DNA of 64,000 nucleotides from Emcibacter nanhaiensis (GTDB lineage: Bacteria; Pseudomonadota; Alphaproteobacteria; Sphingomonadales; Emcibacteraceae). How positions within the stretch are numbered: the stretch's first letter is position 1; every line of letters starts with the position of its first letter. The translations under genes and the position numbers were made by a program. Below are positions 29,004 to 41,911 of the stretch, piece by piece. The notes beneath the pieces are model-generated. The model did not search any database. It saw only the letters and a program-made list of their open reading frames with translations, and was not told the origin of the DNA. The stretch is from NCBI RefSeq assembly GCF_006385175.1, contig NZ_VFIY01000018.1, positions 496,001 to 560,000 of the forward strand. The letters run 5' to 3'.

Positions 29004-29018
29004 TTAACAACAAGTTAA
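29004..29018. promoter_or_regulatory. CtrA-like box (TTAA-N7-TTAA) upstream of flp1
   Basis: TTAACAACAAGTTAA is an exact TTAA-N7-TTAA match, 152 nt before the first pilin ATG. With the TTAACCAT at 28927 it suggests CtrA activation. This parallels Caulobacter, where pilA is known to be CtrA-activated. The intervening AT-rich stretch would contain the transcription start and a long leader. Confidence 0.6.
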
Positions 29019-29169
29019 TTTTTCTTCAATTTAATCCTTGTAAGTATTTGTAATAAAACAAGAAAAAAGGAAATCCATTAACTTTTTGTTCATAACTTCC
29101 GTGCATATTGATAGTCACAAATTTGGCATAGGAACCTTATTTAACTATTGGCACATTGGAGTAAACAAA

Positions 29170-29343
29170 ATGACTAAATTCTTTGCAAAACTGAAAAAAT
29201 CTGAAGCTGGTGCAACCGCTATTGAGTATGGCCTGATTGCTGCCCTGGTGGCTGTTGCTGCCATCGCTGGCCTGAGCGCTGTTGGTCAGTCTCTGGATAC
29301 CACTCTGAAAGGTGTTTCCAGCTCTCTGAACAACGCTGGCTAA
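29170..29343 (+). CDS. Flp/Fap-type pilin 1 (major Tad pilin)
   Basis: A 57-residue type IVb Flp pilin. A charged leader (MTKFFAKLKKSEAGA) precedes the processing site at Gly-Ala. The hydrophobic helix TAIEYGLIAALVAVAAIAGL with the conserved Glu at +5 follows, then a short polar tail. The ATG at 29170 is preceded by GGAGTAAACAAA; upstream in-frame codons are rejected because the pilin begins here. A strong terminator directly follows, which would make this the most abundant transcript of the locus. Prepilin peptidase CpaA is encoded downstream. Confidence 0.96.
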   Translation: MTKFFAKLKKSEAGATAIEYGLIAALVAVAAIAGLSAVGQSLDTTLKGVSSSLNNAG

Positions 29344-40420: not shown

Positions 40421-40735
40421 ATTCTCCTCTGCGGCGCGCTCCTCCGCCGGCTCCCGACGTCCCCGACATCTCCGCGGCAAGGCTAGCAGCTGTGCCGGCA
40501 GAAATCCCGTCTTTTTTGACAAAATGCGAATTGTCAAAGGCTTTTTTAATCCGATGGTTAATGAATCGTTAATTTTTTAGTTGATTCGGGGATTCATTTA
40601 AGAGATGATTCTCCTAGTGATTTGAATCTTATTGGTGAATCTTGTCTGGCAAGAGGGAGAGTGCGGACTCTAGTTTTCTGTAAAAGTCAAACAGTTTCCA
40701 AAGGAAACAGGTAATTAGGGTCCGGATTAGATGTC
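40421..40735. other. Divergent intergenic region between tauE-like and kinase genes
   Basis: This 315-bp region has no gene. Its right part is AT-rich and carries the CtrA/GANTC element described separately. The 40421-40550 part holds TTTTTTGACAAAATGCG (40511 onward), where TTGACA could be a -35 for either a short transcript or the kinase. No terminator is seen. Confidence 0.45.
40558..40670. promoter_or_regulatory. CtrA-like box inside a cluster of seven GANTC (CcrM) sites
   Basis: TTAATGAATCGTTAA (40558-40572) is an exact TTAA-N7-TTAA box with a GANTC site (GAATC) in its spacer. Six further GANTC sites start at 40583, 40591, 40607, 40624, 40637 and 40666, so there are seven in 108 bp. GANTC is the CcrM methylation target in alphaproteobacteria. 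The element ends 66 bp before the kinase ATG and is a candidate methylation-sensitive, cell-cycle-regulated promoter. Confidence 0.55.
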
Positions 40736-41911
40736 ATGAATATAACAGCACGCGAGTTTAAAACATCAGGTGCAGATATGATTTCCCCATCGGAAGCCGT
40801 CGACAACAGTCGGTATAATCGGGAGTTCGGGCTGTTTGACTCCGTGTTCCATGAAGTCAGCGACGCGATCCTGATTATCTCCGCCGGCGACCAGTCCACT
40901 CCCTCCTACATCGAAGACATCAATCACCAGTTCGAACTGTTTACCGGCTACAGCCTGGAGGATGTGCGCGGCACCGACCTGTCCACCTATTTCGCCGACC
41001 ATATCCCGGAAAGCAAAATTGAATCCATCACCCGCGCCCTGGAAAGCCGCCAGTCAGCAATCTTTTATTGCCACTGGAAATGCCGCAACGGCGATGTGAT
41101 CGACGTCAACATGACCGTCCGCCCCATCAGCAGCGACGACGAATGCCCGCGCTTTATCTGCGTGCTCAGGGAAAGCCGCAGCGAGAAGAATGACCGGGAC
41201 GAGGCGGCGCGGGAAATCAAGCAGAAGCTGCTGGCCGCCATGCATCACAATTTCCGCACCCCGCTCAACGGCATCCTCGGCTATTCCGAGGTCATCATGA
41301 CGGAAATGCTCGGCCCGATCGGCAAGGACTCCTACCGGGAATATGCCAAGGATATCCACGGCGCCGGCCAGAACCTGCTGTTCCTGATCGACAATCTGCT
41401 GGATCTCAAGGAACTGGAAACCACCGAGTTCGAGCTCTGTGAATCCATGTTCGACCTCAGCGACCTGGTCGATGACTGCCTGTCCGCCATGACCGAACCG
41501 GCCGCCAAAAAGGATATTACCCTGAAAAAATGCGTCGCCAAAGGGCTTCCGCTCATTCACGGCGACCGGGAGCGGCTGGAAAAAGTCATCTACAGCCTGC
41601 TGGAAAATTCCCTGAAATTCACCCCGGCGGGCGGCACCATCTGCCTGTGCGCGTCGCGGGAAAAGGACGGCACCTGCCAGATCACCTGCCAGGACAGCGG
41701 CAGCGGCATGACGGCGCAGCAGGTGGCCAAGGCCTTCAGCCATGACTCCCACCTGGCCGATATCTATTCCAACCCCACCACCGGCATCGGCTTCGGCCTC
41801 GCCTACGTCAAGAAGCTGATCGAGAAACACGACGGCACCGTCTCCATCGCTTCCAGCCCTGAAAGCGGCACCACCGTCTATGTCCACCTGCCGGCCGAGC
41901 GGTTGGTTTAG
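40736..41911 (+). CDS. PAS-domain sensor histidine kinase (intact catalytic core)
   Basis: A 391-residue soluble kinase. A PAS domain (~55-150) has YIEDINHQFELFTGYSLEDV. The HisKA domain has H171 (AAMHHNFRTPLNGILGYSEV). The ATPase domain keeps the N-box LLENSLKFTPAGG, the G1 box CQDSGSGMTAQQ and the G2 box TTGIGFGLAYVKKL, so it should autophosphorylate. No receiver or DNA-binding partner adjoins it. It lies beyond the tad locus, mirroring the damaged kinase on the other side. The preceding CtrA/GANTC element suggests cell-cycle control. The ATG at 40736 has a weak site; an ATG at 40778 is possible. Confidence 0.92.
   Translation: MNITAREFKTSGADMISPSEAVDNSRYNREFGLFDSVFHEVSDAILIISAGDQSTPSYIEDINHQFELFTGYSLEDVRGTDLSTYFADHIPESKIESITRALESRQSAIFYCHWKCRNGDVIDVNMTVRPISSDDECPRFICVLRESRSEKNDRDEAAREIKQKLLAAMHHNFRTPLNGILGYSEVIMTEMLGPIGKDSYREYAKDIHGAGQNLLFLIDNLLDLKELETTEFELCESMFDLSDLVDDCLSAMTEPAAKKDITLKKCVAKGLPLIHGDRERLEKVIYSLLENSLKFTPAGGTICLCASREKDGTCQITCQDSGSGMTAQQVAKAFSHDSHLADIYSNPTTGIGFGLAYVKKLIEKHDGTVSIASSPESGTTVYVHLPAERLV

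Follow-up and report, generated by a model that had tools for sequence, protein, structure and literature searches.

What regulatory role could explain the packing of seven GANTC sites and a CtrA box into the intergenic DNA before a histidine kinase gene? We analyzed a 64,000-nucleotide stretch of the Emcibacter nanhaiensis genome (hereafter, the window) and found these elements where the original prediction had placed them. Seven GANTC sites start within 108 bp (40563–40670; starts at 40563, 40583, 40591, 40607, 40624, 40637 and 40666), the first of them within the spacer of an exact TTAA-N7-TTAA box at 40558–40572, and the downstream ORF at 40736–41911 encodes a PAS-HisKA-HATPase protein according to Pfam. 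The density had been judged against a rate of one site per 256 bp; the clustering is real and the contrast sharper than that figure implies, as the window is itself GANTC-poor, with 98 sites versus 284 expected from dinucleotide shuffles. The low count agrees with the genome-wide avoidance and intergenic enrichment of GANTC known for alphaproteobacteria (PMC3973325). A 108-bp stretch with the frequency of the window as a whole would contain about 0.17 sites. In 20,000 dinucleotide shuffles, the 315-bp intergenic region never reached seven GANTC in 108 bp. When 98 sites were scattered at random over 64 kb, no more than five fell within 108 bp in any of 2,000 trials, and across the 780-kb contig seven control words sharing the palindromic pentamer form reached at most five in 108 bp. 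That contig, about one fifth of the genome, was ranked in full: the cluster before the kinase is its densest, and the runner-up, in the ftsZ promoter, is the sole other cluster to reach five GANTC in 150 bp. The rest of the genome was searched for three-site clusters beginning with GATTC or ending with GAATC. The TTAA-N7-TTAA pattern occurred four times in the window, with 0.24 occurrences expected.

To describe the parts of the region, we refer to orthologous sequences from the window's family, the Emcibacteraceae. Kinase orthologues, 50–68% identical within the family, are present in 26 of 32 family genomes (the window's own included); two are cut at a contig edge, leaving 24 readable 5' ends that come from a single family and are not independent. 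The counts below refer to these 24 orthologous promoters.

40558..40572, + strand: CtrA box TTAATGAATCGTTAA (TTAA-N7-TTAA), an exact match; both TTAA halves invariant in 24/24.
40563..40567, no strand: GANTC site 1 (GAATC), in the CtrA spacer; private, 1/24.
40573..40578, + strand: T-tract from the CtrA box towards the −35; near-invariant except in length.
40581..40586, + strand: putative −35, TTGATT; TTGA invariant in 24/24, with a rigid 17-bp spacer.
40583..40587, no strand: GANTC site 2, overlapping the −35 and reading TGATTCG, the extended motif published for GcrA; 13/24.
40591..40595, no strand: GANTC site 3, in the −35/−10 spacer; 23/24, as GATTC here and GAATC in 22 others.
40604..40609, + strand: putative −10, GATGAT; invariant in 24/24, a weak match to TATAAT.
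40607..40611, no strand: GANTC site 4 (TGATTCT), overlapping the −10; 23/24.
40624..40628, no strand: GANTC site 5, within the predicted leader; kept in 11/24, with GACTC in one.
40637..40641, no strand: GANTC site 6, also within the predicted leader; the alignment gives about 9/24, and sites turn over nearby.
40666..40670, no strand: GANTC site 7; private to the window's genome, 1/24.
40736..41911, + strand: PAS-HisKA-HATPase_c histidine kinase of 391 aa (Pfam), the gene presumably read from this promoter.

The kinase is preceded by the block GTTAACAAAAGGTTAATTTTTTAGTTGATTCGGCGAATCATTTAGAGGATGATTC or a near variant in all 24 genomes with a readable 5' end. A sequence model of the 55-bp core, which comprises the CtrA box, the T-tract and TTGAYY-N17-GATGAT, found exactly one match in each of the 24, always before the kinase, and no match in any of the six family genomes without the kinase. 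The window's genome contains no second copy of the element, the weaker matches consisting of the CtrA box and T-tract only. The mean majority column identity was 0.95 in the CtrA box, 0.87 in the core and 0.64 in the next 30 bp, compared with 0.45 upstream and 0.37 further downstream. The number of GANTC sites per promoter ranges from two to seven, every promoter has at least one TGATTCG, and the single promoters lacking site 3 and site 4 belong to different relatives. As the upstream neighbour of the kinase varies among genomes (TadC, TadF-like or TauE) while the kinase is constant, the element belongs to the kinase.

Beyond the Emcibacteraceae, a sample of 289 genomes of the class gave no other match. 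Across the order, other strong matches to the element model were limited to two genomes from a different family (L095 and L096; family f6, genus g39), where ftsZ is preceded by 36 bp with near identity to the element core; shared descent, transfer and convergence are all possible origins. The exact pattern TGATTCGNNGAATCAT had one further match, in a family f6 genome (L138), with dissimilar flanks. Some kinase orthologues of family f4 follow TadC and some have a CtrA box, but they lack the GANTC block.

The features listed above suggest that the region is probably a CcrM-methylated sigma70 promoter of the kinase, switched by GcrA and receiving an additional input from CtrA. TTGAYY and GATGAT lie exactly 17 bp apart in 24/24 genomes, but the interval between the CtrA box and the putative −35, 7–9 bp, slips by 1 bp among the promoters; a fixed spacer combined with a sliding box is what a promoter would show. 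Transcription is predicted to start near 40616, about 58 bp after the beginning of the CtrA box. GATGAT is a weak −10, and a consensus sigma70 scan called no promoter. In genus g5, five members lacking site 2 carry TTGACC, a better −35. A poor −10 suits GcrA, which contacts sigma region 2 as well as methylated DNA and accelerates open-complex formation (PMC7403470). For GcrA, PMC7987155 describes activation through an extended motif, YGAKTCK, with TGATTCG preferred, and reports no such preference for Brevundimonas. Together, the match to the GcrA motif and the placement of conserved sites on the putative −35, spacer and −10 point to GcrA and sigma70 rather than to occlusion by CtrA.

The regulators needed for such a promoter are encoded in the genome. 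The CtrA protein is 77% identical to a Caulobacter CtrA query, GcrA scores above the cut-off of PF07750 and was found in 32/32 family genomes, and CcrM matches NF050803 over the full model (E 6e-189), below the model's curated cut-off. An RNase HII-like ORF lies just upstream of ccrM, and a histidine kinase gene shortly downstream (L005, G000:C14:298578). Under the proposed mechanism, CcrM would methylate the GANTC sites, and GcrA, a sigma70 cofactor preferring methylated TGATTCG, would help RNA polymerase open the promoter despite its poor −10. Passage of the replication fork would leave the sites hemi-methylated and reset promoter strength. CtrA bound at its box, 8 bp upstream of the −35, may act as a second cell-cycle input, either activating or repressing, and kinase production would be confined to a set window of the cell cycle. 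A cell-cycle switch tying the kinase to replication is thus plausible.

Two considerations bear on how closely the mechanism may follow the Caulobacter model. The CtrA box ends 7–9 bp upstream of the putative −35 and lies neither over the −35, as in activation, nor over the −10, as in repression; in CtrA-activated promoters of Caulobacter, the box is found at −39 in ctrA P2 and at −49 in podJ P1, the usual activating position being near −35 to −39 (PMC4287350). Given a box outside the typical positions, CtrA input is plausible but of no standard class. The GcrA and CcrM regulons differ strongly even among close relatives (PMC7987155), which makes the transfer of the mechanism to Emcibacteraceae uncertain, and the literature searched yielded no transcription, methylation or binding data on this subject for the family.

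The TGAWTC words could instead form the operator of another regulator, either a palindrome-binding protein or a MucR-like repressor, with the GANTC sites as a by-product that is possibly shielded from methylation. Such a reading draws on TGATTCGGCGAATCA, a near-perfect palindrome, and on the shielding of GANTC by MucR at its target promoters in Caulobacter and Sinorhizobium (PMC5172544). We consider it unlikely: at sites 3 and 5 the variable N base changes while GA..TC is kept, the number of sites is as variable as given above, genus g5 has lost the palindrome and kept sites 3 and 4, and comparable clusters include those of ftsZ and ccrM. A methylated promoter remains the preferred reading of these sites.

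The original prediction had given the central role to site 1, whose methylation was proposed to gate CtrA binding and so to couple the kinase to replication. Its placement exactly within the box spacer is suggestive of competition between CtrA and CcrM, and a synthetic Caulobacter promoter with GANTC over CtrA boxes was hypomethylated, indicating that CtrA can exclude CcrM (PMC5172544). Yet site 1 is found in only one of 24 orthologous promoters, the others mostly reading TTAACAAAAGGTTAA or TTAACAAAAAGTTAA and the closest relative (L034) reading TTAATAAATGGTTAA, and the conserved sites 2–4 are left without explanation. With site 1 missing in the relatives, competition between CtrA and CcrM cannot account for the conservation of the cluster, and we regard gating at the box as quite improbable, although the two proteins may compete there in the window's genome alone. 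Other parts of the original prediction fared better. Conservation in relatives, proposed as a check, was confirmed by the core standing before the kinase in every readable family genome, and both ccrM and ctrA, whose absence had been named as an argument against the idea, are present. With CcrM, CtrA and GcrA encoded and the block conserved, the coupling of the kinase to replication stands as plausible, but not through site 1.

An RNA function for the element, as a leader hairpin or a small RNA in place of DNA-binding sites, is very improbable. A hairpin could form from TGATTCGGCGAATCA and the leader folds slightly better than its shuffles (z −1.4), but the leader is poorly conserved and an Rfam search of the window matched a tRNA only. 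No base pair showed a two-sided change and three pairs were broken in 1–3 of 13 sequences; the hairpin in the palindrome was rejected for this lack of covariation. Finally, chance clustering in an AT-rich stretch is hardly conceivable: the site-bearing DNA is indeed AT-richer than the flanking genes, but the shuffles, the top rank on 780 kb and the conservation in 24 genomes all oppose it, the last already refuting it, and chance can have produced only the private sites 1 and 7.

The kinase gene is the last of a tad pilus locus encoding a prepilin peptidase, CpaB, a secretin, an ATPase, two TadB/C-type proteins, TadE and a TadE-like protein, and from this position the kinase probably acts on pili or polarity. 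In its catalytic part the protein is similar to numerous families, including DivJ and PdhS, all far below the cut-offs, and its matches among solved structures were generic kinases and DivL. As specific identities, DivJ (NF050805, 126 bits versus a cut-off of 1000) and PdhS (NF041593, 122 bits versus a cut-off of 2000) were rejected, and the protein is classed as a PAS histidine kinase only. At the other end of the locus, a second TTAA-N7-TTAA box (29004–29018) lies in an AT-rich region before the ORF at 29086–29343 and precedes the two small Flp-type pilin ORFs that head the tad genes.

We also observed GANTC clusters elsewhere in the genome. The ftsA–ftsZ gap (L107, G000:C18, about 416566–416743) contains six to seven sites, along with repeated AAACGACTCGGA words that are present in other family genomes as well; it is a second conserved multi-GANTC promoter. 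About five sites lie in some 70 bp directly upstream of ccrM (L185, G000:C14, about 296062–296132), where TTGACGCGATTC is a possible −35/spacer and autoregulation by methylation is conceivable. Four sites in 47 bp stand before a small SnoaL-like ORF, preceded by repeated GTGTGTTA words (L183, G000:C14:194460–194506), and a CtrA box with four sites lies before a GlnB/PII-like gene (L188, G000:C15:256090–256117), the last site immediately before the start codon.

One could speculate that the dense arrays serve as a multi-site methylation sensor in Emcibacteraceae at a few cell-cycle genes, namely ftsZ, ccrM and the tad-linked kinase, a proposal that we put forward tentatively and think more doubtful than probable. 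If true, the kinase promoter, having sites on the −35, spacer and −10 simultaneously, would respond to fork passage cooperatively and sharply, and the kinase would be a hitherto unrecognized core node that connects replication with the control of pili or polarity. What is known of how adenine methylation affects promoter output in alphaproteobacteria comes largely from a handful of Caulobacter and Brevundimonas promoters, and the GcrA regulon is known to be rewired fast. With GANTC sites across its −35, spacer and −10 retained in 24 genomes, the kinase promoter offers a clean natural test of whether multiple GANTC sites work jointly, and our analysis names a kinase that selection seems to hold under GcrA-type and CtrA-type control.

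Several well-studied systems resemble the kinase promoter in part. The Caulobacter ftsZ and mipZ promoters are activated by CcrM and similarly carry conserved GANTC, the effect being proven for ftsZ (PMC3708114); the activity of the ftsZ promoter is CcrM-dependent and likewise controlled by CtrA, and ftsZ in the window's genome has a GANTC cluster of its own. In contrast to these two, as many as seven sites occur at the kinase promoter, of which three fall on the −35, spacer and −10, and the product is a histidine kinase encoded at a pilus locus. The likeness to GcrA–sigma70 promoters, characterized by YGAKTCK (PMC7987155), consists of the shared TGATTCG in 24/24, a site in the putative spacer and a gcrA gene throughout the family. 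In Caulobacter, a GANTC between the −10 and −35 marks start sites activated at 40–60 min of the cell cycle, and of 96 cell-cycle start sites bearing GANTC just 11 have more than one within 50 bp (PMC4287350). The kinase core promoter, in comparison, has two to three conserved GANTC, and in the window four sites precede the predicted start. The Caulobacter ctrA P1 and podJ promoters also combine inputs from CtrA and GANTC/GcrA on a regulatory or polarity gene (PMC4287350), but podJ has them on separate start sites, whereas at the kinase promoter a single 55-bp block combines them. CtrA control of the Caulobacter pilin is resembled by the box at 29004–29018. As start sites with multiple GANTC are rare in Caulobacter (PMC4287350), the dense tiling of a single promoter is the unusual part, and the kinase promoter is an unusually dense version of the familiar CcrM/GcrA promoter type.
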